Source of the DNA: Candidatus Dormiibacterota bacterium
GTDB taxonomy: Bacteria; Chloroflexota; Dormibacteria; Dormibacterales; Dormibacteraceae
Length of the DNA stretch: 52,559 nt
Direction of reading: 5' to 3'
NCBI GenBank assembly: GCA_003151935.1
Contig: PLYZ01000029.1
Location: 1-52,559, forward strand
A model generated the notes under the pieces. It did no database searches and was not told the DNA's origin. It was given only the letters and a program-made list of their open reading frames with translations. Shown here piece after piece: positions 24,588 to 52,559 of this stretch. Positions within the stretch are counted from its first letter, which is position 1. Every line of letters begins with the position of its first letter. A program made the translations under genes and the position numbers.

Positions 24588-27500
24588 TTGGCGGTAAAGC
24601 GACCACTGCCAACCAACGGCCACCCGGCCGGCGTTGATCTAAAAGCCCGCGCCGACGGAATGCATATCGGGTCCGGAAGAGTGAACCCCCGAGCTGGTGG
24701 CATGCACCGGCTGGTCGACCCCGCTCTGTTCGACGATCCGGACGCTGCCGCCAGCTTCATCGGCGGCATGCTCGAGGCATCGACCGAATACTCGATTATC
24801 GGCAAGGATCTCGACGGGACGATCCTGCTCTGGAATGAGGGCGCGCGTCGCCTGTACGGATACGAGCCTGAGGATGTCGTAGGCCGGGCCAACTCGTCGA
24901 TCCTTCACACCATCGACGACGTTGCGGCGGGCCTGCCGCAGAGGATGATGGCTACGGCTCTCAAGACAGGCAAGTACGAGGGCACCGTCATGCGCCGGCG
25001 CAAAAACGGCACCACCTTCAACGCCCGCGTCGTGCTGACTCCGCGCAAGGACAACAATGGCAACGCGATCGGATTCCTCCTCATCTCCAAGGACGTGTCC
25101 GACGAGATCCGCTTGACCCAGGTGCTGGAGGCCACCCAGGTCTATACGCGGTCCCTGATGGAGTCGAACATCGACGCCATCATGACCACCGACCCGCTGG
25201 GCATCATCACCGACGTCAACCAGCAGACGGAGTCGCTCACCGGGCACTCCCGCGAAGAGCTGATCGGGTCCCGCTTCAACCGGTACTTCACCGAACCCCG
25301 CAAAGCGGACGAGGCCATCCGTCTCGTGCTCCGCGAGGGCAGGGTCGCCAACTATGAGCTCACGGCCCGCTCGAAGTCCGGCCACGAGACCCTGGTCAGC
25401 TACAACGCTACGGCATTTTTCGACCGGGACCGCAAGCTCCAGGGCGTGTTCGCGGCCGCGCGCGACATCACCGAACAGAAGAAGCTCGAGGAGCAGCTTC
25501 GAGAGCAGCAGAACTACCTCCGAGGTCTCATCGAGGCTTCGTTCGACGGTCTCGTCATGGTTGATTCGCAGGGCCTCATCTCGGACCTGAACGAGCAGAT
25601 GTGCCGCCTGTCCGGTTACGCACGTGAAGACCTGCTGGGCACGGCGTTCGCCACCTACTTCGTCGAGCCTGAGCGCGCCACCGCGGGGGTCACGGAGACG
25701 TTCGATGAAGGCTCGATAAAGGACTATGTCTTAACGCTGCTGACGCGGTCCGGGCAGAAGCTGCAGGTGTCCGTCAACGCCTCGATCTTCCGGGATCACG
25801 TCGGCAACGTGCGGGGCATCTTCGCCTCGGCCCGCGACATCACCGACCAGGCCGTATTGCAGGCCCAGCTTCTGAGCGAGCGCGCTTACAACCGCGGCCT
25901 CATCGAGGCCTCGTTCGACGGCCTCGTCATGGTCGACCCGATGCTGACCATCACCGACGTGAACGAGAAGATGTGCCAGATGTCCGGGTACGAGAGGACC
26001 GAGCTCATCGGCAGCACCTTCCAGCACTACTTCACCGACGCCAAGCGTGCCGCGGCCGGCGTCCGCAACACCCTGGACAAGGGCGCTCTCACCAACTACG
26101 AGCTCACCCTGCGCACCAAGGATGGCCACGAGCAGTTGGTGTCGTTCAACGCCGCAACTTTCACCGACCAGGCCGGGAAGGTACGGGGAATCTTCGCGTC
26201 AGCCCGCGACATCACCGAACAGGGGAGCCTCCAGAAGCTGCTGGCTGAGGAGCAGGCCTACAACCGAGGTCTCTTCGAAGCCTCACGCGACGGCCTGGTG
26301 ACCGTGAACGATGACATGCGAATCACCGACGTGAACGAGACGCTTTGCAAGATGGTCGGGCGGACTCGCGCGCAGCTGGTCGGTTCGATGTTCCCGGAAC
26401 ACTTCACCGAGCGCGACCGCGCAATCGATGGCGTGCGTCTCACGTTCGAGAAAGGCCTGGTCACCAACTACGTGCTGACCATGCAGGCGGCCAACGATCG
26501 AAAGCTGCAGGTTTCCTTCAACGCCGCGGTCTTCCGCGACGCCGCCGGCGTTGTGCGTGGCATTTTCGCCTCGTTCCGCGACGTCACCGACCAGCAAGAG
26601 CTCGAGCTTCAGCTCCGCGACACCCAGGTCTATACGCGCTCCCTGATCGAGTCGAACGTCGACGGCATCATGACCACCGACCCGCTGGGCGTGATCACCG
26701 ACGTGAACGAGCAGATGGTGGCGCTCACCGGCCGCACCCGAGAGGAGCTGATCGGCTCACCCTTCAAGACCTATTTCACCGAACCCGATCGAGCCGAGGA
26801 AGCCATCCGGCTGGTGCTGCACGAGGGCAAGGTCACCAACTACGAGCTGACCGCCCGTTCCAAGGAGGGTCGCGAAACGGTGGTCAGCTACAACGCGAGT
26901 GCGTTCTTCGACCGCGACAACCGCCTACAGGGCGTGTTCGCGGCAGCGCGCACCATCACCGCCCAGAGAAAGCTCGAGGAGCAGCTGCGGGAGCAGCAGG
27001 CATACCTACGAGGTCTGATCGAATCGTCCGGGGATGGCCTCATCACGGTCGACCCGGACGGCTTCATCTCCGACGTCAACGACCAGATGTGCCGCATGTC
27101 GGGCTACGGGCGAGCGGATCTCAACGGCACCCAGTTCGCCGACTACTTCACCGAGCGGGAAGTCGCTCGCGCAGGTGTCAAGCAGACCTTCGAGATGGGC
27201 GTGGTCACCGAGTACGCACTGACGATGGTCGCGCGCACCCGCCGCCATCTGCAAGTGACGTTCAACGCGTCGGTGTTCAAGGATTCGGGCGGCATCGCGC
27301 GCGGCATCTTCGCCTCCGTCCGCGACGTGACCGATCGCGTGCGCCTCGAAGAGCAGATGCGTGAGCAGCAGGCCTACCTCCGAGGGCTGATCGAATCGTC
27401 CGGAGACGGCCTGGTCACGGTTGACCCCGAGGGGTTCATCACCGACCTCAACGAGCAGATGTGCCGTATGACCGGCTATGCGCGGCAGGAGCTCATGGGC

Positions 27501-29216
27501 TCTGTGTTCAAGCGGTACTTCACGCAGCCGGACAATGCCGAGATGGGCGTGCGCCGGACCCTGGCGGAGGGTGGGGTCACGAACTACGAGCTGGTGCTCG
27601 AGTCAAAGGGAGGCCGGAAAGCCGCCGTCTCGTTCAACGCCTCGGTGTTCAGGGCCCCCGACGGCCATATCGAGGGCATCTTCGCGTCCATGCGGGACAT
27701 CTCCGAAAAAGCTCGCCTGGAAACCCAGCTGACCGAGCAACAGGTTTACAACCGCTCGCTGTTCGAGGCTTCGGCGGACGCCCTGTTCGCCATCGCGCCC
27801 GACGGCGTCATCACCGACGTCAACGAGGAGGCGACTCGGCTCAGCGGCTACACCCGCAAGCATCTGATCAGCTCGCGCTTCAATGACTATTTCACCGACC
27901 CCACTCAGGCTGCGGCAGGCGCTGCCAAGACGTTCGCCGAAGGTCGAGTCATCGGCTACGAGCTCGTGATCGTGACCCGCCAGGGCCGGCGCATAACGGT
28001 GAGCGTCAATGCCGGTGTGTTCACCGACGCGACCGGTCAGGCGCTCGGGATTCTTGCAGGCGCCCGCGAGATCAGTGCTCAGAAGCAGCTGGAGCAACAG
28101 CTGCGCGACTCGCAGGTCTATACGCGCTCGCTGATCGAGTCCAACATCGACGCCCTCGTCACTACGGACGCGGTCGGCGTGATCACCGATGTCAACCAGC
28201 AGATGGAGGCGCTGACTGGCCACGGACGCAACGAGCTCATCGGTTCGGACCTCAAGAACTACTTCACAGAGCCCGAACAGGTTGAGGAGGGCGTGCGCCA
28301 GACACTCCGTGACGGGAAGGTCACCGATTACGAGCTCACGGCCCGCAGCCGGGATGGTAAGGAGACCGTCGTCGTTTACAACGCCGCCACGCTTTTCGAT
28401 CCCGACCACAAGCTGGAGGGCATATTCGCCGCCGTGCGAGAGATCACCGAGCGCAAACGCTTCGAGCAGCAGCTGCAGGAGACCAACGTCGCGCTCGAGC
28501 GTGCGGACCAGGCCAAGGACCGCTTCCTGGCAAGCATGAGCCACGAGCTGCGAACTCCTCTGAACGCAATCATCGGCTTCACCGGAACCTTGCTCATGAA
28601 GCTGCCCGGCCCTCTCAACCCCGAGCAGGAAGGGCAGCTTCAGACCGTGCAGTCGAGCGGCCGCCACCTGCTCTCGATCATCAACGACCTCCTGGACCTG
28701 GCCAAGATCGAGTCCGGCAAATGGGAGGGCGACTTTCAGCCTCTGGATTGTGCGGAGGTGGCAAAGGAGGTCGTGGGCGGACTCAGCCCGCTGGCGCGCA
28801 ACAAGGGAATCGGCTTCACGGTGGTCGCACCGGAGCATGCGGTGACAGCCTCCCTTGATCGCCGTGCACTGAGCCAGATCCTGATCAATCTCAGCAGCAA
28901 CGCGATCAAGTTCACCGATAAGGGTGAGGTTCGCATCGAGATCCACGAAGGAATATCCGACGGGCGGGCGACGGTGCGGTTCGACGTGATCGATACAGGC
29001 ATCGGGATCAAACAGCAAGATCAGGACAAGCTCTTCAAAGCGTTCGAGCAGCTCAAGACTTTCGGGATCGCCGCGCCCAGAGAAGGCACAGGCCTGGGGC
29101 TGTACATCTGCCAACGTCTGGCGAGACTCCTCGGCGGGAGCATCGAGTTCACGAGCCAGCTTGGGACGGGCAGCGTCTTCAGCTTCATCGTGCCGAGAGA
29201 GCATCTTGAGCAGTAA
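24588..29216 (+). CDS. Soluble histidine kinase with ten PAS domains
   Basis: A 1542-residue cytoplasmic kinase from TTG 24588, ten bases after AGGAGG. A divergent first PAS (about residues 45-180) is followed by nine PAS repeats of exactly 124 residues, starting at residue 185. Each has the form YxRxLxExxxDxxxxxxxxG, IxDVNExM, YFT, VTNYELT and GIFAxxRDIT. Then come HisKA (H-box SMSHELRTPLNAI, His1319) and HATPase (NLSSNAIKFTD, DTGIGI, GTGLGLYIC). There is no membrane segment. Many tandem PAS domains usually integrate several ligands or form a long signalling rod. It heads a four-gene operon with a receiver and two further kinases, whose receivers are its likely phosphorylation targets. Confidence 0.9.
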   Translation: MAVKRPLPTNGHPAGVDLKARADGMHIGSGRVNPRAGGMHRLVDPALFDDPDAAASFIGGMLEASTEYSIIGKDLDGTILLWNEGARRLYGYEPEDVVGRANSSILHTIDDVAAGLPQRMMATALKTGKYEGTVMRRRKNGTTFNARVVLTPRKDNNGNAIGFLLISKDVSDEIRLTQVLEATQVYTRSLMESNIDAIMTTDPLGIITDVNQQTESLTGHSREELIGSRFNRYFTEPRKADEAIRLVLREGRVANYELTARSKSGHETLVSYNATAFFDRDRKLQGVFAAARDITEQKKLEEQLREQQNYLRGLIEASFDGLVMVDSQGLISDLNEQMCRLSGYAREDLLGTAFATYFVEPERATAGVTETFDEGSIKDYVLTLLTRSGQKLQVSVNASIFRDHVGNVRGIFASARDITDQAVLQAQLLSERAYNRGLIEASFDGLVMVDPMLTITDVNEKMCQMSGYERTELIGSTFQHYFTDAKRAAAGVRNTLDKGALTNYELTLRTKDGHEQLVSFNAATFTDQAGKVRGIFASARDITEQGSLQKLLAEEQAYNRGLFEASRDGLVTVNDDMRITDVNETLCKMVGRTRAQLVGSMFPEHFTERDRAIDGVRLTFEKGLVTNYVLTMQAANDRKLQVSFNAAVFRDAAGVVRGIFASFRDVTDQQELELQLRDTQVYTRSLIESNVDGIMTTDPLGVITDVNEQMVALTGRTREELIGSPFKTYFTEPDRAEEAIRLVLHEGKVTNYELTARSKEGRETVVSYNASAFFDRDNRLQGVFAAARTITAQRKLEEQLREQQAYLRGLIESSGDGLITVDPDGFISDVNDQMCRMSGYGRADLNGTQFADYFTEREVARAGVKQTFEMGVVTEYALTMVARTRRHLQVTFNASVFKDSGGIARGIFASVRDVTDRVRLEEQMREQQAYLRGLIESSGDGLVTVDPEGFITDLNEQMCRMTGYARQELMGSVFKRYFTQPDNAEMGVRRTLAEGGVTNYELVLESKGGRKAAVSFNASVFRAPDGHIEGIFASMRDISEKARLETQLTEQQVYNRSLFEASADALFAIAPDGVITDVNEEATRLSGYTRKHLISSRFNDYFTDPTQAAAGAAKTFAEGRVIGYELVIVTRQGRRITVSVNAGVFTDATGQALGILAGAREISAQKQLEQQLRDSQVYTRSLIESNIDALVTTDAVGVITDVNQQMEALTGHGRNELIGSDLKNYFTEPEQVEEGVRQTLRDGKVTDYELTARSRDGKETVVVYNAATLFDPDHKLEGIFAAVREITERKRFEQQLQETNVALERADQAKDRFLASMSHELRTPLNAIIGFTGTLLMKLPGPLNPEQEGQLQTVQSSGRHLLSIINDLLDLAKIESGKWEGDFQPLDCAEVAKEVVGGLSPLARNKGIGFTVVAPEHAVTASLDRRALSQILINLSSNAIKFTDKGEVRIEIHEGISDGRATVRFDVIDTGIGIKQQDQDKLFKAFEQLKTFGIAAPREGTGLGLYICQRLARLLGGSIEFTSQLGTGSVFSFIVPREHLEQ
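25140..28487 (+). repeat. Nine tandem 372-bp PAS-coding repeats
   Basis: Nine in-frame units of exactly 372 bp (124 codons), with boundaries at 25140 + 372n. The bases CAGGTCTATACGCG recur at every fourth unit boundary (25137, 26625, 28113: exactly 1488 bases apart), where the protein reads VYTRSLxESN. So units 1, 5 and 9 form one type and the others follow between them. The absence of any length change over 3.3 kb indicates recent or selected expansion. Confidence 0.9.
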
Positions 29217-39001: not shown

Positions 39002-41323
39002 TCAGCGCGATCTGGCTCGAATCAGCGAACGTACGCGCTCGGGTGTGAATGGAAGCGTTCCGTCGGGTACCGAGAGCGCGTCGGCGATTGCATTCGCGAT
39101 CGCGGCCGTCGAGCCAATCGTGCCACCCTCACCGATTCCTTTCGTCCCAAGCTCGTGCACCGTGGAAGGCGTGAACAGGTGCTCGATCTCGATCACCGGC
39201 ACCTCGCCCGCGGTCGGGATCAGGTAATCCATGAAGCTGCCGCTCAGCAGCTGGCCGTCGGCTCCGTAGGTGATCTCTTCCATCAACGCGGCGCCGATCC
39301 CTTGCGCAACGCCCCCCATGACCTGGCCGTCCACGATCATCGGGTTGATCACCGTCCCGCAGTCCTCGGCGATGACATAACGGCCGACCTCCACGGCGCC
39401 GCTCCCCGGATCGACCTCGACGAAACAGACGTGCGTGGCGTAAGGGTGGGAGGCCTGGACCGGGTCGTAGGTCACTGACACGTCCAGGTGATGGCCGCCG
39501 TTGGCCGAGGCATCCGCGGCCACGAGTTGGGCCAGCGTCATCCGGGCGCTCTCTCCGTCGACGACGATGTCCGAGCCCTCGATCGCCAGCCGCTCGACCG
39601 GTTGGTCGAGGCGGTACGAGGCCGCGTTGAGGATCTCCTCGCGAAGCTGCTTGGCGGCGCGAGAGGTGGATGTCGCCGCCGTGACCGAGCTGCGGCTCAT
39701 GAACGAACCCGTGCCGCGGCCGACCCTTGAGGTGTCGGTTTGCTCGACGATCACCGTCTCTGGGTCGATGCCCATCGCTGCCGCCGCCACCTGCGCGAAG
39801 GTGGTTTGAACGCCCTGCCCGATCGCCGGGCAGCTCGTCTGCACGCGGACGCGGCCCGCCTCATCGACCCATACCCGCGCGGTATCGGTGCCTGGAATCC
39901 CGACCATGCCGCGGCCCTTGAAGGTCGACGATCCGGCGCCAGTGAACTCGACGTATGAGCCGAGTCCGATGCCGACCAGCCGCCCGGACGCCCTGGCCCT
40001 GGCCTGCTCGGCGCGGGCGCGCTTGTAGTCGAAGGTGGAGAGGGCCGCCTCCAGGGTGGCGAGATAGTCGCCCGACTCGTATGGATGGCCTGTCACGGCG
40101 GTGTACGGCATCTGCTCCGCGGTCACGAAGTTGCGGCGTCGCACCTCGGCGGGGTCGATACCGAGCCGGGTCGCGATGAGATCCATCAGCCGCTCGTGCG
40201 TGAGCACGGCGGTGACCATCCCGACGCCGCGATAAGGTCCTTCCGGGCACTTGTTGGTGGCGAGGGCGTAGGAGTCGTACTCGTAGTCGCGAATGTCATA
40301 CGGGCCGGGGATGAGGCCCGCGCATGTCATCGGGTCGAGCAGCGGCCCATGCGGCCTGATGCCGTAGGCGCCGATGCTGGACAGCACCGTCGCGCGAAGT
40401 CCCAGCACCCGGCCGTCGTTCCGGACGGCGGCGCTGAAGCGGATCCTCTGGTCGCGCGCATGGTTTGCCGCCTGGAGGTGCTCGGAGCGGTCTTCGATCC
40501 ATTTGACGGCGGCGTGCACCTGCAGCGCGATCCATGGCAGCAGGATCTCTTCGGTGTAAACGTGCGCCTTCAGGCCGAACCCGCCGCCAACATCGGTGGC
40601 GACCACCCGAACTCTCGCCTCGGGCAAATCCAGGCTCTCGACAATCGCCTCCGCCACGAGATGCGGGACCTGTGTCGAGCTCCACGTGACCACGCCGCCC
40701 GAACCATCGGCCGTCGCGATCACGCCCCGGCCCTCGATCGGTGCGGCGGACACGCGCGGGTGGCTGACCTCGCCCTCCACCACGACATCTGCGGCAGCGA
40801 ACGCCTTCTCGACATCGCCCATCGTGCGATGGCCGAGGAAGTACTGGTTCTTCGGCACCGACTCGTGAACCAGCGGCGCGCCGGCGGCCATCGCCTCCTC
40901 GAAGGTGGTCACCGCCTGCAGGGGTTCGAAGTCTGTGCGGATCAGCTCCAGCGCATCTTCCGCCTGGTAGCGCGTGCCGGCCACCACCGCGGCCACGATC
41001 TCACCGACGAAACGGACGCGATCGACCGCGATGATGGGCCGGTCAGGCGCAATGGCGCCGGGTGTGGTCAGGTGTACTCGCATGGGAGCGCACGTGCCAG
41101 CCAGGTCGGCGCCGGTGAACACCGCGACCACGCCGGGCGCACGGCGCGCGGCCTCAGCGTCGACGGTGTTGATGCGTGCGCTCGCGGACGGGCTGCGCAG
41201 CAGCGCCACGTGAAGCAGGCCTTCGGGCTTGAGGTCGTCGATGAAGCGGGCGAGGCCTCGCAGAAGGGGATCGTCCTCGAGACGGAGCAGGTTCCTCCCG
41301 ATCGGTCCAGCCTGCACGTTCAC
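39002..41323 (-). CDS. Molybdenum hydroxylase large subunit (xanthine dehydrogenase/CoxL family), first copy
   Basis: A 773-residue molybdopterin-binding subunit of the aerobic CO dehydrogenase/xanthine dehydrogenase family. Recognisable parts are RLEDDPLLRGLARF at the start, VGGGFGLKAHVYTEEI, and the active-site loop NKCPEGPYRGVGM. The last resembles the form II AYRGAGR rather than the AYxCSFR of true form I CO dehydrogenase. Others are the cofactor-binding PAIGQGVQT and the catalytic Glu in GTKGIGEGG. Such enzymes hydroxylate N-heterocycles or aldehydes. No medium or small subunit is encoded beside it, so it probably shares those of the opposite operon. It diverges from the GntR gene. Confidence 0.9.
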   Translation of the reverse strand: MNVQAGPIGRNLLRLEDDPLLRGLARFIDDLKPEGLLHVALLRSPSASARINTVDAEAARRAPGVVAVFTGADLAGTCAPMRVHLTTPGAIAPDRPIIAVDRVRFVGEIVAAVVAGTRYQAEDALELIRTDFEPLQAVTTFEEAMAAGAPLVHESVPKNQYFLGHRTMGDVEKAFAAADVVVEGEVSHPRVSAAPIEGRGVIATADGSGGVVTWSSTQVPHLVAEAIVESLDLPEARVRVVATDVGGGFGLKAHVYTEEILLPWIALQVHAAVKWIEDRSEHLQAANHARDQRIRFSAAVRNDGRVLGLRATVLSSIGAYGIRPHGPLLDPMTCAGLIPGPYDIRDYEYDSYALATNKCPEGPYRGVGMVTAVLTHERLMDLIATRLGIDPAEVRRRNFVTAEQMPYTAVTGHPYESGDYLATLEAALSTFDYKRARAEQARARASGRLVGIGLGSYVEFTGAGSSTFKGRGMVGIPGTDTARVWVDEAGRVRVQTSCPAIGQGVQTTFAQVAAAAMGIDPETVIVEQTDTSRVGRGTGSFMSRSSVTAATSTSRAAKQLREEILNAASYRLDQPVERLAIEGSDIVVDGESARMTLAQLVAADASANGGHHLDVSVTYDPVQASHPYATHVCFVEVDPGSGAVEVGRYVIAEDCGTVINPMIVDGQVMGGVAQGIGAALMEEITYGADGQLLSGSFMDYLIPTAGEVPVIEIEHLFTPSTVHELGTKGIGEGGTIGSTAAIANAIADALSVPDGTLPFTPERVRSLIRARSR

Positions 41324-41412: not shown

Positions 41413-42150
41413 GTGGTGACGCCTGTGGGGGGCACGTCTCTCGCACACAAGGCCCGCGAGGAGATCCTGCACTCGATCCTCGAGCGCCGCTTCGAGGATA
41501 GCCGCCTACCGCCGGAGAACGAGCTGGCCGACATGCTCGGCGTCAGCCGGACGACGGTCCGCTCTGCGCTTCAGTCGCTCGAGCAGCATGGAGTCCTCAC
41601 CCGCAGCCCGGGCCGGGGGACTCAGGTTCACGGCCTGCTCAGCCCTTCCATGGTCGCCTTACAGCGACTGATCGGGTTCACCCGGCTGCTCGAGGAGCAG
41701 GGCTACACCGTCGAGACGCTGACCGACGCCAGGATCACCACCACCGCGCCCGCGGATGTGATCGAGGCGCTGGGGGTCGACAAGGCGACCCCGATCTACG
41801 AGATCGACCGCCTCTTCGTGGCCAGCGGCAGCCCGGCGATCTGGGCCATCAACTACATCCAGACTTCGCTCTTCGCCGAGCCGCCGCTCGAAAGCCAGCT
41901 CGCCCAATCGCCCTTCGAAATGGGTGCCCTGTTGATCGGAGGACCGGTCGACCACGCGCTGGTGGAGCTGGTGCCGCTCAAGGCGACCAGGGAGGTCGTG
42001 AAGCAGCTCGAGATGAAGCCGGGCGAGGCCTACATCCAGCTCAAGGAGCTCCACCTGTCGGAGTCCGGAGCGGTGCTGGGCTTCAGCCTGATCCACGTCA
42101 ACGATCGCTTCATCCGCTTCCGGCTGCACCGCGGCGGCGACGGACGGTGA
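41413..42150 (+). CDS. GntR-family regulator with UTRA (HutC-type) effector domain
   Basis: A 245-residue regulator from GTG 41413. The N-terminal winged helix has HKAREEILHSILERRFEDSR, LPPENELADMLGVSRTTVRS and a wing GVLTRSPGRGTQVHG. The C-terminal UTRA domain (about residues 90-240) binds a small-molecule ligand: PIYEIDRLFVASGSPAIWAI, then KPGEAYIQLKELHLSESGAVLGFSLIHVND. It is the first gene of an operon with three molybdenum hydroxylase subunits. It overlaps the next gene by four bases and diverges from another large subunit. It probably represses both and responds to a substrate or product. Confidence 0.92.
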   Translation: MVTPVGGTSLAHKAREEILHSILERRFEDSRLPPENELADMLGVSRTTVRSALQSLEQHGVLTRSPGRGTQVHGLLSPSMVALQRLIGFTRLLEEQGYTVETLTDARITTTAPADVIEALGVDKATPIYEIDRLFVASGSPAIWAINYIQTSLFAEPPLESQLAQSPFEMGALLIGGPVDHALVELVPLKATREVVKQLEMKPGEAYIQLKELHLSESGAVLGFSLIHVNDRFIRFRLHRGGDGR

Positions 42151-44450
42151 CTAAGGCGACAGCGACCCCCGAGGCCGCCCTGCAGGGTATCGGCAGCTCG
42201 CCCCTGCGCAAAGAAGACTGGCCTCTCGTCCGCGGAGAGGGGACGTTCGTCGCAGATTTCAAGCGTCCCGGAATGGTCCACGCGTTCGTCGTGCGCAGCC
42301 CGTTCGCGCACGCCCGATTCACAACGATCGACCGCGAAGCGGCGCTGGCCGCGCCGGGGGTCATCGACGTGATCACCGCTCAGGATCTTCCCGATCGCGG
42401 CAGGCCCATCCCGACCCGCATGTTCAAGGACGAGGGATCGAACCGCTTCCTGCAACGCCCGCTGGCCGATGGCGTCGTGCGCTATTCCGGCGAGCCGGTG
42501 GCGGTGGTGATCGCGGACACGCGCTACAGCGCCGAGGACGCGGCCGAGCTGCTGAGGGTTGATTACGAGCCGCTCGCCGTGGTGCTCGACCCGGACGATG
42601 CCGTGGCTGAGGACGCGCCGCTCTTGCAGCCGCATACCGGAACCAACGTGGCGGGCCACCTGGTCGTGGAGATAGGCGCACTCGATGAAGCCTTCGCCGG
42701 AGCCGACCTGGTGATCGAAGAGGAGTTCTGGATCCAGCGCCATGCGGCCGTGCCTCTGGAGACGCGCGGCCTGCTGGCCGAGTACGACGCGAAGACAGAA
42801 TCACTGACCGTGTGGGGCGCGGCCAAGATTCCCCACGTCAACCGGGCGATCCTGGCCCGGCTGCTCGGTTGGAACGACGAGAGGAGGATCCGGCTCATCG
42901 AGCTGCACGTCGGTGGAGGCTTCGGCGCGCGAGGCGAGTTCTACCCGGAGGACTACCTGATCCCGTTCGCCGCCATGCGGACCGGGAGGCCGGTGGCGTG
43001 GGTGGAGGACCGCGAGGAGAACCTGCGTGCAACCAACCAATCCCGCGAGCAGGTGCATCGCGTCGAGATGGCTCTCAAGGCCGACGGCACCTTTCTAGCC
43101 CTCAAGGACAGCTTCATCAACAACACGGGTGCGTACGTGCGCACGCACGGCATGACGGTGCCAGGGCTGAGCGTGTCGATGCTGCCCGGACCTTACCGAT
43201 GGCCGGCCTACCGTGGCGAATATCGCAGCGTCGTGACCAACAAGACTCCGGGTGGCACCTACCGTTCGCCCGGCAGGTTCGAGATCAACTTCGTCCGAGA
43301 GCGGCTGGTCGACATGGCAGCGCACCGCCTTGGCATCGACCCGGTGGAGATTCGGCGCCGAAACCTGATCGACAGGGCGAGCTTTCCGCACGACACCGGC
43401 ACCCTGTTCGACGGCCACCCGGTGATCTATGACAGTGGGGATTACGTGCTGCTGCTCGAGAAGGCGCTGGCGGCCTTCGACTACGAGGGCATGAAGCGCT
43501 GGCGCAAAGAGCCGGCTTCGGATGGCTTGCGGCGCGGGCTCGGCATGGGTTTCTTCGTCGAGAAGGCCGGACCAGCCGAGCGCGAGTACGCGCGTGTGGA
43601 GCTGAACGAGAACGGCGATGTCATCGTGTACACCGGCACCGCTTCGGTCGGCCAGGGCGTCGAGACCATCCTCGCCCAGGTGTGTGCGAGTCACCTCGGA
43701 CTTCCTTATGAACGCATCACCGTCGTGCACGGAGATACCGGAGTCATTCCTGAGGGGATGGGCGCGTTCGGCAGCCGCGCGGCGATGCTCGGTGGCGCAG
43801 CGGTGATGCGGGCCTCGGAGGAGATCAAGAGACGGCTGCTCGAAGCCGCGGCAGAGGAGCTCGAGGCGGCGCCCGCCGACCTCGTGCTCACCACCATGGG
43901 GGTCTCGGTGATAGGCGCGCCTTTGCGCACTGTCTCCCTCACCAGGCTCTTGAGCGCCGGAGGCGGGGTGATCAAGCAGGAGGACCGTTTCGTGTGCGAG
44001 CTGCTGGGCTTTCCGTACGGAATTCACTTCGCCGCTGTCGAGGTCGACCCGGCGTCCGGCGCGGTTCACATACATCGCTTCGCGGTTGCCTACGACATCG
44101 GCCGCTGCATCAACCCCGTCCTGGTCAAGGGCCAGATCGCGGGTGGGTTCGCACAGGGTGTCGGCGGCGCTCTGCTGGAGGAGTTCAGCTTCGATGCAAG
44201 CGGCCAGCCGCTGTCGGCGAGCTTCATGGACTACCTGCTGCCGACTTCGGAAGACGTTCCGGACATCGAGGTGCTCATCACCGAGGATGCGCCCTCGCCG
44301 CTGAATCCGCTTGGAGTAAAAGGGGCGGGGGAGGGCGGCACCGCGGCAGTGGGCGCGGCGATCGCGAACGCCGTATCCGATGCGCTCGGCCGCGAGGTGA
44401 CGCGCCTGCCGCTGAACCCTCAGCGGGTGGTCGAGCTGGCGACAGCATGA
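42147..44450 (+). CDS. Molybdenum hydroxylase large subunit, second copy
   Basis: A 767-residue paralogue of the divergent large subunit. Features are RKEDWPLVRGEGTFVADF, VGGGFGARGEFYPEDY, and the active-site loop NKTPGGTYRSPGRFE, a Ser-Pro variant of the form II AYRGAGR. Others are SVGQGVETI for cofactor binding and the catalytic Glu in GVKGAGEGG. GTG 42147 overlaps the GntR stop by four bases and its TGA overlaps the FAD-subunit ATG, so the unit is tightly coupled. The loop differs from both CO dehydrogenase forms, so I do not call it coxL. The substrate is unknown. Confidence 0.9.
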   Translation: MTKATATPEAALQGIGSSPLRKEDWPLVRGEGTFVADFKRPGMVHAFVVRSPFAHARFTTIDREAALAAPGVIDVITAQDLPDRGRPIPTRMFKDEGSNRFLQRPLADGVVRYSGEPVAVVIADTRYSAEDAAELLRVDYEPLAVVLDPDDAVAEDAPLLQPHTGTNVAGHLVVEIGALDEAFAGADLVIEEEFWIQRHAAVPLETRGLLAEYDAKTESLTVWGAAKIPHVNRAILARLLGWNDERRIRLIELHVGGGFGARGEFYPEDYLIPFAAMRTGRPVAWVEDREENLRATNQSREQVHRVEMALKADGTFLALKDSFINNTGAYVRTHGMTVPGLSVSMLPGPYRWPAYRGEYRSVVTNKTPGGTYRSPGRFEINFVRERLVDMAAHRLGIDPVEIRRRNLIDRASFPHDTGTLFDGHPVIYDSGDYVLLLEKALAAFDYEGMKRWRKEPASDGLRRGLGMGFFVEKAGPAEREYARVELNENGDVIVYTGTASVGQGVETILAQVCASHLGLPYERITVVHGDTGVIPEGMGAFGSRAAMLGGAAVMRASEEIKRRLLEAAAEELEAAPADLVLTTMGVSVIGAPLRTVSLTRLLSAGGGVIKQEDRFVCELLGFPYGIHFAAVEVDPASGAVHIHRFAVAYDIGRCINPVLVKGQIAGGFAQGVGGALLEEFSFDASGQPLSASFMDYLLPTSEDVPDIEVLITEDAPSPLNPLGVKGAGEGGTAAVGAAIANAVSDALGREVTRLPLNPQRVVELATA

Positions 44451-45325
44451 AGCCCGCGCAGTTCGAGTACGACGACCCGCAAACCCTGGACGAGGCGCTG
44501 GAGCTGCTGGCCCGCCACGGCGACGACTGCAAGGTGCTGGCGGGCGGCCAGAGCCTGGTGCCGCTGATGAACTTCCGCCTGGCGCGCCCGGGACGTCTGA
44601 TCGATATCAACGGCGTCGCCTCGCTTTCGCATATCACCAGCGAAAGCGGGCGGCTCGTGATCGGCGCGATGACGCGCCACGTCGAGCTCGAACGCTCGAC
44701 GGAGGTCGCCCGGCAGTCCCCGCTGCTGACGGAGGCGATCGGCTGGGTGGGACACAGCCAGATCCGAAGCCGAGGAACCATCGGTGGTTCCGTCGCCCAC
44801 GCGGACCCCGCGGCGGAGCTGCCGGCGGCGCTGGCCGCTCTGGATGCGACGTTCCACATGCGCTCCAAGCAGGGCGCGCGCGTGCTCGGCTGGAAGCAGT
44901 TTTTCGTCTCCGAGTTCACCACCGCCCTCGCGCCGGACGAGCTGGTCACGGCGGTCCAGGTGCCTGACCAAGACCCTTCGACGGGCACGGCGTTCGTCGA
45001 GTACGCGAGGCGGCACGGCGACTTCGCGCTTGGCGGTGCCGCCGTGACCATCAAGCTCGGTCGTGACGGCCGCTGCGAGAACGCGACGATCGCGCTCCTG
45101 TCGGCGGGCCCCGCCCCGGTGAGGGCTGAGGCCGCCGAGAAGCAGCTTCGGGGCGCCAGGATCGACGAATCCTCCATCCACGCCGCATCCGTGGAGGCGG
45201 TGAAGGGGCTGCATCCGACCACCGACCTTCATGGGAGCACGGAATACCGGGTGGGCCTGCTCCAGACGATGACCGAGCGGGCACTCACCAAAGCAGCGGA
45301 GCGCGCGAGGAGCATGACCGGGTGA
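44447..45325 (+). CDS. Molybdenum hydroxylase FAD-binding (medium) subunit
   Basis: A 292-residue CoxM-like flavoprotein that passes electrons from the 2Fe-2S centres to the acceptor. Both FAD motifs are present: AGGQSLVPLMNFRLA (about residues 32-46) and TIGGSVAHADPAAELPA (about 109-125). The CO-dehydrogenase-type C-terminal domain follows, with FVEYARRHGDFALGGAAV. ATG 44447 overlaps the large-subunit stop by four bases, and the stop overlaps the 2Fe-2S subunit start. The gene is the only medium subunit in the window and may serve both large subunits. Confidence 0.93.
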   Translation: MKPAQFEYDDPQTLDEALELLARHGDDCKVLAGGQSLVPLMNFRLARPGRLIDINGVASLSHITSESGRLVIGAMTRHVELERSTEVARQSPLLTEAIGWVGHSQIRSRGTIGGSVAHADPAAELPAALAALDATFHMRSKQGARVLGWKQFFVSEFTTALAPDELVTAVQVPDQDPSTGTAFVEYARRHGDFALGGAAVTIKLGRDGRCENATIALLSAGPAPVRAEAAEKQLRGARIDESSIHAASVEAVKGLHPTTDLHGSTEYRVGLLQTMTERALTKAAERARSMTG

Positions 45326-45804
45326 ATCGAAAAATCTCAGTCGAGATCAATGGACAAGTCGTGGACGGTCTCGTCGAGCCAAGGCTGTTGCTCGCCGACT
45401 TCATCCGCGACAACGCCTCGCTCACCGGGACTCACCTGGGCTGCGAGCATGGAGTGTGCGGTGCCTGCACGGTTCAGCTCGATGGCCGTCCGGTGCGATC
45501 GTGCTTGCTGTTCGCCGTGCAGGCAAACGGCCGCCGCATCGCGACGGTCGAGGGCATGGCGCCGAGCGCAACCACGCTCCATCCTCTCCAGCAGGCGTTC
45601 CATGAAAGCCACGCGCTCCAGTGCGGCTTCTGCACGCCAGGGATCCTCATGACGATGGAAGCGTTCCTGCGCGAGGAGCCGGACCCAACGCCGGAGCGCA
45701 TTCGCAGCGCGCTTGCCGGCAACCTCTGCCGGTGCACCGGTTACCAGAACATCATCACAGCGGTGCGTCTGGCGGCGGACAGGCTCCAGCAGACGAGGGC
45801 CTGA
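45322..45804 (+). CDS. Molybdenum hydroxylase 2Fe-2S (small) subunit
   Basis: A 160-residue CoxS-like iron-sulfur protein. The plant-ferredoxin-type cluster is bound by Cys41, 46, 49 (CEHGVCGAC) and 61. The second, helical-domain cluster is bound by Cys101, 104 (CGFC), 136 and 138 (CRC). The length is typical of the family. GTG 45322 overlaps the FAD subunit's stop by four bases. It completes a large-medium-small set in one operon. Two bases after its stop comes the start of a decayed amidohydrolase gene. Confidence 0.94.
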   Translation: MNRKISVEINGQVVDGLVEPRLLLADFIRDNASLTGTHLGCEHGVCGACTVQLDGRPVRSCLLFAVQANGRRIATVEGMAPSATTLHPLQQAFHESHALQCGFCTPGILMTMEAFLREEPDPTPERIRSALAGNLCRCTGYQNIITAVRLAADRLQQTRA

Positions 45805-47955: not shown

Positions 47956-48288
47956 ATGAACGACTCCGCTCCAACCGGCGAACCCGAGACTGGCGAACCG
48001 CTGCCTGGCGAGCGTCAAACCCGCCTGAGCGGTGCCTGGACGGCCATCGTCGTCGGCCTGGTCGCCATGGTCGTGATCCTCGTCTTCATCCTGCAGAACC
48101 AGCAGAGTGTCGAGGTCACGTTCCTGGTCTTCAAAGGCCACCTGCCGCTGGCGGTGGCGCTGCTGTTCGCACTGATCCTCGGCGCGGTCATCGTGGTCGC
48201 CTTCGGGGCGGCTCGCATCCTTCAGCTCCGGATGGTGGCCGGTCGGGCGCGGCGCAAGGGCCCGAGCCACCCTCCCAAGCCGGAGTGA
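47956..48288 (+). CDS. LapA-domain (DUF1049) membrane protein
   Basis: A 110-residue protein with a polar N-terminus and two membrane spans (about residues 27-47 and 62-85). Between them is the family motif VFILQNQQSVEVTFLVFKGHLPLAVALL. The C-terminus is basic. Members of the LapA/YciS-like family help assemble envelope components in proteobacteria; in Gram-positive-like lineages the role is unknown. Its stop overlaps the next gene, a PAP2 phosphatase, by four bases (48285-48288), so the two are coupled. Confidence 0.85.
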   Translation: MNDSAPTGEPETGEPLPGERQTRLSGAWTAIVVGLVAMVVILVFILQNQQSVEVTFLVFKGHLPLAVALLFALILGAVIVVAFGAARILQLRMVAGRARRKGPSHPPKPE

Positions 48289-49013
48289 CAGACCCCAAGA
48301 AACGCCAAAAGAGACCCGAAAGCAAGCCCGCAACGCGCCGAGCGGCGAAGCAGGGCCCAAAGCCCAAGGCCGGCGATCCGGAGGTCACCGACACCAAAGC
48401 CACCGAGCCGACCAGCGCACCGGTGGTCGCGGCCGGGCCCGTGGCCGTGCATGTGGACGCGGGCGACGTCAAAGTGGTGGTCGCGCCTCCCGGCAGGGCT
48501 GGGATCGACCGCCGCCTCTACCGGCTGATCAACGGTCTGCCGCACACGACGACCACCGACCGCTATGTCAGCGTGCTCTCAGACCTTGGCGAGGGGCTCG
48601 GGTGGGTGGCCGCAGGAATCGCCCTGGGCATTCTCGGCGGTTCCAAGGGGCGCCGGGCCGGTGCCGCCACGGCCGTCGCATCGCTGGCGGCGACCTACGT
48701 CGTCCAGGTTCGGGTCAAGCCCCTGTTCCGCCGCGTACGGCCATTTGTCAATCGCGAAGCTCGCGTGGTCGGGATCCGCCCGGCCGACCACTCGTTTCCA
48801 TCCGGCCACACCGCATCATCCTTCGCCGCCGCAACCGCCCTCGGGTTCTTCTATCCAAGGGCCGCCCCGCTCGCGTACGGGCTGGCGACCGCGGTCGGCG
48901 TCTCCAGAGTTCATCTCGGCGTCCACTTTCCCAGCGACGCTGCGGTCGGCGGAGTGATCGGGATCGGGATCGGGACCTTCAGCGCCTGGGTGTTCAAGAA
49001 GCGAGCGAATTAG
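48285..49013 (+). CDS. PAP2-family membrane phosphatase (first of three)
   Basis: A 242-residue protein from GTG 48285. An N-terminal, Lys/Pro/Thr-rich cytoplasmic tail (about residues 1-70) is followed by a PAP2 domain with all three phosphatase motifs: KPLFRRVRP, PSGHTASS and SRVHLGVHFPSD. Substrates in this family are lipid phosphates such as undecaprenyl pyrophosphate or phosphatidate. It is coupled to a LapA-like gene. Its stop overlaps the end of an oppositely oriented PAP2 gene by 20 bases. Confidence 0.88.
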   Translation: MTDPKKRQKRPESKPATRRAAKQGPKPKAGDPEVTDTKATEPTSAPVVAAGPVAVHVDAGDVKVVVAPPGRAGIDRRLYRLINGLPHTTTTDRYVSVLSDLGEGLGWVAAGIALGILGGSKGRRAGAATAVASLAATYVVQVRVKPLFRRVRPFVNREARVVGIRPADHSFPSGHTASSFAAATALGFFYPRAAPLAYGLATAVGVSRVHLGVHFPSDAAVGGVIGIGIGTFSAWVFKKRAN

Positions 49014-49734
49014 TAGGACCCAAACTTGTTCCGCTTGGCGCACCGGACGTGCTGCGGTCGCCCTGCTTGGGCCCAGTCGCGAACGCTCGATCTGTGACCC
49101 GCCGCAACGACACCACGAAGGTCAGCCAGGCGATGGCGATGAGCAGCCCCGCAAGGACATCGCTCGGCCAGTGGGTCCCCGCGTAGATCCTGTCGAGCCC
49201 CACGGCTACGACAATCCCCGCCACGACTGCCCAACCGATCGGTCTTGCCCAACGTGGCAGATACCTATGGCCGAGGCACAGCATCAAGACGGCGGCGCTG
49301 ATCGTGATGAAGATGATGTGCCCGCTGGGAAAGCTGGTCGAACCGGGATGCTCGGTCACACGAAGGACCTGGCCGACTACAGGCCGCGGCCTGTTGACCA
49401 GGTGCACGATGGCTTCGTACCAGAGGCCGCCGGCGAGCGCGGCAAGTGCCAGGAACCATGCGCGACGATTCAACAGAAGCACGAGGAGGATGACGACTAT
49501 CTGCATCGGGATCCCGCCGGGTCCGCCGAGCCAGGTGAACAAGGGGAACGTAACGGTGATCGGGCCCAGGTTGGTCGCCTGGATGTCCCGCTCGACCGTC
49601 GCGTCCAGCGAAAGGAAGGGATGCATGACTACCACCCCGGTGATAAGGCCGACCGCGACCGCGGCCGCGATCGCGACGGCGAGCAGGGGGACTCGGATCA
49701 AGACGACGTCGCCCGCGCGCGGCCTCGAAACCAT
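48994..49734 (-). CDS. PAP2-family membrane phosphatase (second of three)
   Basis: A 246-residue polytopic phosphatase. Motifs: RPRPVVGQVL (first motif, reduced), FPSGHIIF and DRIYAGTHWPSD. Hydrophobic spans at about residues 15-35, 65-90, 95-110 and 145-215. I use ATG 49734, which overlaps the upstream PAP2 gene by 37 bases. TTG 49701, giving the four-base overlap used elsewhere in this operon, is an equally good start. It is the last gene of the ppk-lipid kinase-PAP2-PAP2 operon. Confidence 0.85.
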   Translation of the reverse strand: MVSRPRAGDVVLIRVPLLAVAIAAAVAVGLITGVVVMHPFLSLDATVERDIQATNLGPITVTFPLFTWLGGPGGIPMQIVVILLVLLLNRRAWFLALAALAGGLWYEAIVHLVNRPRPVVGQVLRVTEHPGSTSFPSGHIIFITISAAVLMLCLGHRYLPRWARPIGWAVVAGIVVAVGLDRIYAGTHWPSDVLAGLLIAIAWLTFVVSLRRVTDRAFATGPKQGDRSTSGAPSGTSLGPTNSLAS

Positions 49735-50441
49735 CGGAAGCTCGGGGACGGCAGCCAGCGCTCGGGGAGCCAGAGCACGAACGCCGACCAGCCGATGCCG
49801 AGCAGGACGCCGCCGATGACGTCGCTCGGCCAGTGCGCGCCCGCCCAGACCCTGGCGATGCACGTGAGCACGATCACCACCACGACGAGAGTCCAGAGGA
49901 TTGGCCGGAAAACAGGTCTGATCTTTGGAGCGATGGACACGGCGATCATGAAGGCCATCCAGGTGAAGAAGACCGCATGACCGCTCGGGAAGCTGAAGCC
50001 GGTCGTCGGCGACAGGATGTGGACGAGATCCGCGGGCGGCCGCTGCCGTGAGATGACGAGCTTGATTAGGTTGTCGATCAGGCTCGAGATGCTGCCGATC
50101 AACATCAGCCAGCCGGCTCGGCGCTCCAGGATGAAGAGCGCGACGATGGCAACGGCACCGATCAACACCTGCCAGATGCCGGCGCTCGCGTTGATCAGCT
50201 CCATCGGATAGACGATGGGGCCCCAGTTGAGCTCCTGGATGAACCTGGCGATCGGGATGTCAAACGGAAGCACATCGTTCTGCACGACAAGGAAGGTGTC
50301 GATCGCGAAGAGGATGAAGACCACGAGCGCCGTCGGACCGAGCCATCGCCTGGCCGTCGGTCCGGGTCTCCCCGCAATGACCTCCGCAGCAGCCTGCTTG
50401 GGTTCGGCGAGAGGCGCTGAGTCTTTGGCCAGTGCGCTCAA
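49698..50441 (-). CDS. PAP2-family membrane phosphatase (third of three)
   Basis: A 247-residue polytopic phosphatase with motifs KLVISRQRPP, FPSGHAVF and ARVWAGAHWPSD, and about six spans. The N-terminal 30 residues are polar. Its start overlaps the stop of the lipid kinase gene by four bases (50438-50441), so a kinase and a phosphatase acting on lipids are made together. That suggests opposing steps in phospholipid or polyprenyl phosphate metabolism. Confidence 0.9.
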   Translation of the reverse strand: MSALAKDSAPLAEPKQAAAEVIAGRPGPTARRWLGPTALVVFILFAIDTFLVVQNDVLPFDIPIARFIQELNWGPIVYPMELINASAGIWQVLIGAVAIVALFILERRAGWLMLIGSISSLIDNLIKLVISRQRPPADLVHILSPTTGFSFPSGHAVFFTWMAFMIAVSIAPKIRPVFRPILWTLVVVVIVLTCIARVWAGAHWPSDVIGGVLLGIGWSAFVLWLPERWLPSPSFRWFRGRARATSS

Positions 50442-51331
50442 CTTGGGAGGATCACCTGCAATGCGCTCAGCTCCGCGGTGATGGTTGCCGGCGTGCGGCC
50501 CATCTGTGCGTTGTCAGCGTAGATCCGCACCTTTGGCTTGGTGGTCACCTCGAGCTTGCGGAACTTGAATACCTGGCCCAGGCCGCCTTCCTTGTGCTTG
50601 GAGAGAATGGCGCGGGCGAGCACCCGCTTGACGATGTCCGTGCGACTCGCGCCCGCGTGAACCGACAGCTCCAGGTATGGATCCTTGGGCGTCTTGTCGC
50701 TCACCGGCATCTGCGAGCCGATCGACGTTGTGTTGGTGAAAACGAGAGACATGCAGGTGCCGCTGCCCCGGATGTCGCCCGTCAGCTCATAGGTGAACGG
50801 CCGGGCCTCGGCAACGTGCTTGATATCCTCAGCGAACGCTCCGAACGCCTTGTCCTTGGCGGACTCGCCGGCTGCGATGGTCTCGCCGAAGAGACCGATC
50901 GCCGCGGCCTCCAGGAATATCTTTCCGTTCAAACGCCCAAGCGTGATGGGGTGAGGTTTCCCGGTCTTGACCACCCGGATGGCAGCATCGACCGTGGTCG
51001 GCAGGTGCAGCGACTTGGCGAAGTTGTTGAAGGTGCCCATCGACAGGATGCCGAGTGGGTGCTTGGTGTCGGCAAGCTTCCGGACGACCCAGCCGATCGT
51101 GCCGTCTCCGCCCGCCACGATGATCGTAGCCGTTGGAGAGAGAAGCTTCTCCAGGTCCATCTTTGGATCGAATTCGACGATCAGGCTGCCGGCGAAGGCT
51201 TTGCGGAGCTTCGCCTCGATCTCGGGTGTCATCGAGCCCGCCTTGGAGCTCATGATCAGCAGGCTGGTCGTCTGTTTCGCCCTGGTCGCCCGCTTGAGGC
51301 TGGACCTTCCAGTAAGTGTGGCTGTGCTCAT
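50438..51331 (-). CDS. Diacylglycerol kinase-family lipid kinase
   Basis: A 297-residue protein of the DAGK/sphingosine kinase/YegS family. The nucleotide-binding GGDGT is at residues 74-78 within TIIVAGGDGTIGWVV, followed by LGILSMGTFNNFAKSL and the family's two-domain fold (AAAIGLFGET, then a C-terminal beta domain). It phosphorylates diacylglycerol or a related lipid. Its ATG overlaps the stop of polyphosphate kinase by four bases (51328-51331) and its stop overlaps a PAP2 gene. The residues binding the nucleotide are intact. Coupling to ppk is notable. Confidence 0.9.
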   Translation of the reverse strand: MSTATLTGRSSLKRATRAKQTTSLLIMSSKAGSMTPEIEAKLRKAFAGSLIVEFDPKMDLEKLLSPTATIIVAGGDGTIGWVVRKLADTKHPLGILSMGTFNNFAKSLHLPTTVDAAIRVVKTGKPHPITLGRLNGKIFLEAAAIGLFGETIAAGESAKDKAFGAFAEDIKHVAEARPFTYELTGDIRGSGTCMSLVFTNTTSIGSQMPVSDKTPKDPYLELSVHAGASRTDIVKRVLARAILSKHKEGGLGQVFKFRKLEVTTKPKVRIYADNAQMGRTPATITAELSALQVILPS

Positions 51332-52559
51332 GCGGCTTCAACTCCTTCCTGTCCGACGATTCCGAGGGTCTTGCGTTGCATCCGCTTCTGGGTGTTGACT
51401 CCGCTCCCGGCGGCAACCTTGCTCCAGGTCCCGTCCCCGGCCAGCTCCCACGCGAGCGTGTCATCGGACAGTTCGAGCTCCAGGAATTGATCGATTTCCG
51501 CATTCAGATCCGAGTCGGCCACGGGGACGACGGCCTCCACCCGCCGGTCGAGGTTGCGAGGCATCAGGTCGGACGAGCCGATGAGAACGTGACGGTTGGT
51601 TTCGGTTCCAAAGCGAAAGATCCGTGAGTGCTCCAGATAATGGCCCACCAGAGAACGGACGCGGATTCCGTCCGACAGCCCGGGCACGCCCGGCTTGAGA
51701 CAGCAGATGCCGCGCACGATCAGGTCGATCCGGGCACCTGCCTGCGACGCTCGGTACAGAGCATCGATCACCTCCGGGTCGACAAGGTTGTTGACCTTGA
51801 TCACGATTCGCCCTCCCGGGCTCAACGCCTCTTGGTGGATCAGCTCGACGATCCCCGATCGAAGCGTGGTGGGCGCGACCAGAAGCTTCCGGTAGCTGCT
51901 CTGGTGGCTGTAGCCGGTGAGGTAGTTGAAGAGCTCCGCGATGTCTGCCGTCACATCCGGATCTGCCGTGAACAGCCCGATGTCCTCGAACAAGCCGGCT
52001 GTGGCCGCGTTGTAGTTGCCGGTGGCGATGTGGGCGTAACGCCGGACGCCGGCGCCCTCCTGCCGCACGACCAGCATGAGCTTGGCGTGTGTCTTGAGGC
52101 CGACCAGGCCGTACACGACGTGAACTCCCGCTTCCTCCAACGCCTTGGCCCACTCGATGTTCGCCTGCTCGTCGCCACGCGCCTTCAGCTCAACGAGCGC
52201 TACCACCTGTTTGCCTGCCTGGGCCGCGATTTTGAGCGCCCGTGCGATCGGGCTCTCGGGACCTGATGTCCGGTACATGGAAATCTTGATTCCGAGAACG
52301 TCCTTATCGCGCGCGGCCTGCTCGATGAATGCCTCGACCGAGGTCACGAATGAGTCATAGGGGTGATGCACGAGGAGGTCTCCGCTGCGCAGCACTCCGA
52401 AGAAGTCGACCTGCTCGCTGCCGTCTGGGCGAAGCCTTGCTTGAGTCGCAGGCATTGTTGCCCTCGCGGTCAGCGGATTGCTGCCTGGCACCTGGATCGA
52501 AAGAAGGCCGGTCAGATCCAGCATCCCCGTCACCGAGTACACATCCTGAGAGCCGAGCT
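51328..52559 (-). CDS. ppk1: Polyphosphate kinase 1, C-terminal part (cut by the right edge)
   Basis: The last 410 residues of polyphosphate kinase, which makes polyphosphate from ATP reversibly via a phospho-His. The catalytic region is present: KISMYRTSG (Arg), the phospho-His loop VGLKTHAKLMLV, GNYNAATAGLFEDIGLFTAD and the C-terminal RHVLIGSSDLMPRNLDRRVE. The N-terminal two domains lie outside the window; the frame remains open to 52559. It is the first visible gene of a leftward operon with a lipid kinase and two PAP2 phosphatases. Confidence 0.93.
   Translation of the reverse strand, partial: LGSQDVYSVTGMLDLTGLLSIQVPGSNPLTARATMPATQARLRPDGSEQVDFFGVLRSGDLLVHHPYDSFVTSVEAFIEQAARDKDVLGIKISMYRTSGPESPIARALKIAAQAGKQVVALVELKARGDEQANIEWAKALEEAGVHVVYGLVGLKTHAKLMLVVRQEGAGVRRYAHIATGNYNAATAGLFEDIGLFTADPDVTADIAELFNYLTGYSHQSSYRKLLVAPTTLRSGIVELIHQEALSPGGRIVIKVNNLVDPEVIDALYRASQAGARIDLIVRGICCLKPGVPGLSDGIRVRSLVGHYLEHSRIFRFGTETNRHVLIGSSDLMPRNLDRRVEAVVPVADSDLNAEIDQFLELELSDDTLAWELAGDGTWSKVAAGSGVNTQKRMQRKTLGIVGQEGVEAA

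Follow-up and report, generated by a model that had tools for sequence, protein, structure and literature searches.

A second polyphosphate kinase gene joined to a DAGK-PAP2 gene set in Dormibacteraceae

Described systems and layout of the locus

The described systems closest to the gene set reported here are the polyphosphate kinase of Escherichia coli, the lipid kinases DgkB and YegS, and pairs or fusions of PAP2 phosphatase and diacylglycerol kinase genes. The set lies at the end of a stretch of 52,559 bases (the window; bases 1-52559 of the 53,789-base contig PLYZ01000029.1, our G000:C84) from a Candidatus Dormiibacterota bacterium of the family Dormibacteraceae (assembly GCA_003151935.1, our genome G000; 2.94 Mb in 97 contigs). 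It consists of a polyphosphate kinase gene (ppk1), a gene of the diacylglycerol kinase (DAGK) family and two genes for PAP2 phosphatase-like membrane proteins (PAP2a and PAP2b). In our preferred reading, to which we give an even chance, it is an operon for the turnover of lipid phosphates, to which a dedicated second ppk1 was added in one subclade.

Like E. coli Ppk (1xdo/1xdp; TIGR03705), the cluster PPK1 has the four PPK1 domains and the His and Arg positions; unlike it, the protein is a second copy, 62-65% identical to the other PPK1, and its gene is placed before DAGK and PAP2 genes. The DAGK-like protein shares the two-domain fold and the GGDG motif with DgkB (2qv7) and YegS (2bon, 2p1r) but carries G(T/S)xNN for GTxND and FxE for FxN, and has mostly lost DGE. 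A 'bifunctional phosphatase PAP2/diacylglycerol kinase' is known from actinobacteria, and four loci of family f3, in the same class (L074-L076, L078), have PAP2-DAGK fusions of 497-514 amino acids followed by another PAP2 gene. There the same two domains are made together next to a PAP2 gene as well, but they are fused, they keep DGE and GTxND, and no ppk1 was seen beside the four loci. The dgkA of the mcr-3-dgkA gene pair is of the integral membrane type. A PAP2 or diacylglycerol kinase gene also adjoins another lipid-phosphate gene in the pairs mcr-1-hpap2 and mcr-3-dgkA, but in another context and without ppk1 (PMC7559476). The arrangement ppk1-DAGK-PAP2 itself was not met in our search of open-licence papers. 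Each part comes from a known family or fold.

All four genes are located on the minus strand. The window contains the C-terminal part of ppk1 (51328-52557, 409 codons; PF17941, PF13090; TIGR03705), which is cut by the window edge; a run of N comes next, and the rest of the contig has most of the remaining gene and, upstream of it, a DUF1206 gene. DAGK (50438-51331; PF00781, 6.1e-19) encodes 297 amino acids with altered active-site motifs. PAP2a (49698-50441; PF01569, 2.9e-21) encodes 247 amino acids from a TTG start, and PAP2b (PF01569, 2.3e-18) extends over 48994-49701 with a TTG start or 48994-49734 with an ATG start. Four-base overlaps join ppk1 with DAGK (ATGA) and DAGK with PAP2a (TTGA), and PAP2a and PAP2b share 4 bases (TTGA, TTG at 49701) or 37 bases (ATG at 49734). 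The tight set and the alternative overlaps of the second PAP2 gene, both described in a preliminary description of this DNA, were thus confirmed in coordinates and joins. Because an ATG is found at the 4-base position in G002, a genome of the same genus, and in G025, the start of PAP2b leans towards the 4-base overlap, although this start is not available in G027 and G008.

Occurrence and descent of the gene set

A survey of gene order, which the preliminary description had set beforehand as a test, revealed that the arrangement is not confined to one genome. The cluster ppk1, taken as at least 82% identical to the cluster copy of G002, occurs in six of the 42 family genomes (G000, G002, G008, G021, G025 and G027) from four genera, and in all six loci it stands directly before DAGK with the ATG 4-base overlap (ATGA). 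The full ppk1 of G002 (700 amino acids) is preceded by a DUF1206 gene, a PPK2 gene (TIGR03709) and a divergent PLD-domain gene. Since another ppk1 copy is carried by all six genomes (cut by the contig end in G021, split in G025), a role of the cluster gene as housekeeping gene was rejected. About 320 extra bases interrupt the other copy of G025 (L194 4000-6340) and seem to introduce no stop (open frame 822).

Around the other PPK1 genes of the class, no DAGK, PAP2, DUF1206 or PPK2 gene was detected in 33 loci (30 distinct genes) of families f1 and f3 with flanks of 1.5 to 5 kb; the genes of f2 and f4 were retrieved without flanks. In the phylum outside this class, 0 of 59 PPK1 loci had the same neighbours; these loci came from the 61 genomes, among 151 sampled, in which PF13090 was matched. 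Flanks in this survey reached up to about 5 kb, some being cut by contig ends. The six cluster loci were included as a positive control, and weak or small PPK1 pieces in G094, G133, G117, G175 and G085 were omitted. The mixture of polyphosphate and lipid genes is therefore as unusual as had been supposed, and the idea that ppk1 generally stands beside such lipid genes was rejected.

DAGK was sought in 61 genomes, 37 of them from the same family, and an ortholog (at least 44% identity) was found in 31 of the 37. The remaining family genomes have a DAGK fragment with an internal stop (G001) or weak matches only (G005, G006, G013, G018 and G022). The decayed fragment of G001, a member of the same genus, adjoins a PPK2 gene (L072 1500-2617; 54% identical); PPK1 matches were absent from this genome, which is 85% complete. 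Counts of neighbours rest on 32 loci from 31 genomes (G024 contributes two) and on rough gene starts. PAP2 directly adjoins DAGK in 28 of these loci and is missing beside it in four; 20 of the PAP2 neighbours lie downstream on the same strand, six downstream in convergent orientation and two upstream on the other strand. DUF1206 is located upstream of DAGK in 19 of the 32 loci, and the commoner unit in the family is DUF1206-DAGK-PAP2-PAP2. As the overlap between ppk1 and DAGK recurs in every one of the six loci and 19 of the 20 co-directional pairs allow a 4-base overlap between DAGK and PAP2, the overlaps exceed chance.

DUF1206 is tied to DAGK in these 19 loci and in G002 its gene, encoding a membrane protein, lies directly 3' of the PPK2 gene (L041 11050-12748); a lipid-phosphate role for DUF1206 is therefore a testable guess. 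Among Foldseek's 1000 best chains the DUF1206 model (pLDDT 80.6) had no clear structural match, the best being an acetate permease with a Z of 6.6, which is in the common range. A further DUF1206-DAGK pair, its genes 1 base apart, is found in G023 (L079 5917-8508); its DAGK is 26% identical to that of G002, and the gene that follows has, by eye, a response-regulator-like start. The nearest named loci belong to Candidatus Dormibacteraeota or Chloroflexi metagenome-assembled genomes. Eight of 80 named loci are cyanobacterial, and six of these (L118, L121, L125, L126, L132 and L134) have a DAGK with the NN motif beside a convergent PAP2 gene, a pairing not present in L128 and L148.

A tree of 40 PPK1 rows from the class unites the cluster copies in one clade (100/100, stem 0.47); the family plus the cluster is recovered with 92/94, and G009 is a weak sister (90/87). 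In the DAGK tree (28 rows; G009, G015, G031 and G036 left out) the six DAGKs with an adjacent ppk1 fall inside one 10-row subclade (100/99). The best tree does not unite them in one clade, but a single clade was not rejected (p-AU 0.189). These trees would fit one gain of ppk1 with losses in G019 and G012, or a later transfer. In comparisons of g1, g2 and g7, identities are 81-83% for the cluster copies versus 86-90% for the other copies; G021 alone disagrees, with 84-85% for the cluster copies versus 70-71% for the others. Recent transfer as sole cause of the cluster ppk1 was rejected on these identities. The locus of G019 has the layout of G008 minus ppk1, with the upstream PAP2 gene ending 2 bases before a possible DAGK start; the DUF1206 gene of G019 is split into two frames.

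Protein features and explanations of the gene set

In the reading that we prefer, DUF1206, the DAGK-like protein and two PAP2 phosphatases would form a membrane lipid-phosphate turnover operon, and the second ppk1 would have been gained directly before DAGK in one subclade; two of the genera also have a PPK2 gene upstream. The PAP2 enzymes would dephosphorylate lipid phosphates at the membrane and thereby release phosphate, and the DAGK-like protein may rephosphorylate a lipid, or bind and sense one. PPK1 would bank phosphoryl groups as polyphosphate, from which PPK2 could return them to nucleotide phosphates, so that co-translation might set lipid phosphate recycling and the polyphosphate store together. 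The observations on which this reading rests are gene order, overlaps, second-copy status, the active-site residues of PPK1, PAP2a and PAP2c (a third PAP2 protein, see below) and purifying selection. The reading is also supported by the frequent PAP2 and DUF1206 neighbours of DAGK in the family, the f3 fusions, the cyanobacterial DAGK-PAP2 pairs, the single clade of cluster PPK1 and the position of the six DAGKs within one subclade. From them we infer a single transcript, the substrates, the direction of flux and the functional link.

PPK1 of G002 contains all four PPK domains (PF13089, PF02503, PF17941 and PF13090) and scores 742.7 bits against TIGR03705 (cut-off 465.85). Alignment to 1xdo revealed that the catalytic His and the phosphate-binding Arg residues are kept (GLKxHAK, RYAHIxTGN, YLEHxR, MYR and ELxAR), at positions whose roles we take to be those of the E. 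coli enzyme. By domains and residues, the cluster protein is a member of the PPK1 family. Ratios of nonsynonymous to synonymous substitution rates (dN/dS) were 0.135-0.168 for PPK1 (6 pairs), 0.096-0.170 for DAGK (10 pairs), 0.105-0.201 for PAP2a (6 pairs) and 0.151-0.224 for PAP2b (3 pairs). With values from 0.096 to 0.224, all four genes are under purifying selection.

The motifs of PAP2 phosphatases are K-x6-RP, PSGH and SR-x5-H-x3-D. PAP2c keeps all three; PAP2a keeps K-x6-RP, PSGH and R-x5-H-x3-D, with Ala for Ser before the Arg of the third motif. Judged by these motifs, PAP2a and PAP2c are members of the PAP2 family. PAP2b keeps PSGH and R-x5-H-x3-D and has, in the window, Asp for the Ser of the third motif. 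All three proteins score far below the cut-offs of NF047884, PRK10699 and PRK11837 (PgpB and UPP phosphatase classes).

Several observations weigh against a lipid-phosphate operon with a dedicated ppk1. The first-motif Lys of PAP2b is replaced, and the DAGK motifs are altered. All six genomes have a ppk1 elsewhere. The cluster gene is patchy in the family and missing in the close relatives G019 and G012, which have the same unit, so the lipid module works without it. PPK2 was found upstream in three of the six loci (G002, G025 and G027); G008 lacks it there, and in G000 and G021 the contig stops short of its position. Three of the six loci sit on contigs of less than 16 kb, which makes misbinning possible. 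A scan for promoters and terminators gave 0 and 3 sites, versus 0.6 and 2.5 in shuffled sequences, none of them above the shuffles. Apart from these points, an Rfam scan of the window gave 0 matches. Of the coupled operon put forward in the preliminary description, the tight, conserved set with overlaps suited to translational coupling was borne out; ppk1 turned out to be a patchy addition and a second copy.

The rival that survives best, which we consider possible although clearly less probable than a dedicated ppk1, is co-regulation only. The lipid genes would share a stress or phosphate-status signal with ppk1 and PPK2, and be made together with them, but neither side would act on the substrates of the other. 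Regulation by stress or by phosphate is common both for polyphosphate enzymes and for lipid phosphatases, and the patchy presence of ppk1 within an otherwise complete lipid unit would be in line with this, but an ATG 4-base overlap kept in all six loci is tighter than co-regulation would require.

Doubtful, but still to be weighed, is a role of the DAGK-like protein as a non-kinase lipid- or nucleotide-binding regulator of PPK1 or the PAP2 enzymes. Its model (pLDDT 80.9) matches nine bacterial lipid kinase entries including DgkB and YegS with Z 17.6-19.6, followed by human AGK and SphK1 (Z near 16) and NAD kinases (up to 13.7), and on this predicted structure the protein shares the DgkB/YegS fold. 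It scores 68.3 against Pfam DAGK_cat (cut-off 23.6) and 90.4 against TIGR00147, below the cut-off of 118.65; every NCBIfam equivalog cut-off was likewise missed. The acidic residues of the motifs GTxND, (V/I)DxG and DGE matter in DgkB. In the cluster-type DAGKs (31 rows; the broken DAGK L070 stands outside this set) GTxND is replaced by G(T/S)xNN in all 31, and the Glu of DGE is kept in three (L046, L047 and L069); Thr or Lys stands in place of the Asp of (V/I)DxG in all 20 rows compared. The other DAGK of the genome (L073) and the f3 fusions, on the other hand, keep DGE and the Asp before Phe. As G(T/S)xNN is found in every row and the Glu of DGE in so few, the protein departs from the residues of lipid kinases and, on its motifs, lipid kinase activity cannot be assumed. 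A simple kinase/phosphatase balance with DAGK as a plain lipid kinase, as first suggested, was therefore not borne out. Against a mere regulator stand the invariant GGDG and the FxE in all 31 rows (Glu for the Asn of FxN), which are compatible with a shifted but working active site, as well as the purifying selection on the gene. The 80 named loci include further relatives of the NN and FxE type (from cyanobacteria, Chloroflexi and Verrucomicrobiota), and some of them keep DGE, which likewise argues against a regulator; no test of the chemistry of this subtype was found in the open-licence literature. A bacterial ceramide kinase of the same superfamily, phylogenetically distinct, phosphorylates both ceramide and diacylglycerol in vitro (PMC10331486), so the substrate is not readable from the family name.

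It is improbable that ppk1 is a passenger, that is, a duplicated copy brought into the operon by recombination and with no special role there. The single clade of cluster PPK1 and the sister loci of G019 and G012 without ppk1 would agree with such an origin, but the low dN/dS of PPK1, the catalytic residues kept over four genera and the 4-base overlap in all six loci speak against it. Direct use of polyphosphate as phosphate donor occurs in some NAD kinases that belong to the same fold superfamily. We regard it as very unlikely that the DAGK-like protein acts as a lipid kinase whose active site has been rebuilt and takes its phosphate from polyphosphate, directly or through nucleotides made by PPK2, with the cluster PPK1 making the donor and PAP2 closing the cycle.

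If the coupling of the preferred lipid-phosphate operon is functional, it would link the polyphosphate bank with membrane lipid phosphates in soil bacteria that are represented here by metagenome assemblies alone, and the locus would allow the purpose of second PPK1 copies to be tested concretely; if it is not, this would be an ordinary operon with a captured gene. The locus also points to a DAGK-like subtype (NN/FxE) beside PAP2 genes in the family and in cyanobacteria.

Convergent PAP2 gene and other parts of the window

The preliminary description had left out the DUF1206 and PPK2 genes upstream, the third PAP2 gene and a LapA-domain gene beside it. PAP2c (48285-49013, plus strand; PF01569, 4.1e-22) converges with PAP2b (48994-49701, minus strand), so that 20 coding bases are common to opposite strands. 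Comparable PAP2 tail overlaps are present in G002, G008 and G019, and a gene of the PAP2c type adjoins DAGK in other genera also. The LapA-domain gene, encoding a small membrane protein (47956-48288, plus strand; PF06305, 4.8e-13), overlaps PAP2c by 4 bases.

Inspection of translations by eye yielded two further observations in the window. In a frame of 1542 amino acids at 24588-29216 (plus strand), numerous PAS-like units follow one another in tandem, and the frame has a histidine kinase end. Large-subunit frames resembling xanthine/CO dehydrogenase occur twice, at 39002-41323 (minus strand) and within 42147-45804 (plus strand), the latter followed by medium- and small-subunit-like frames.

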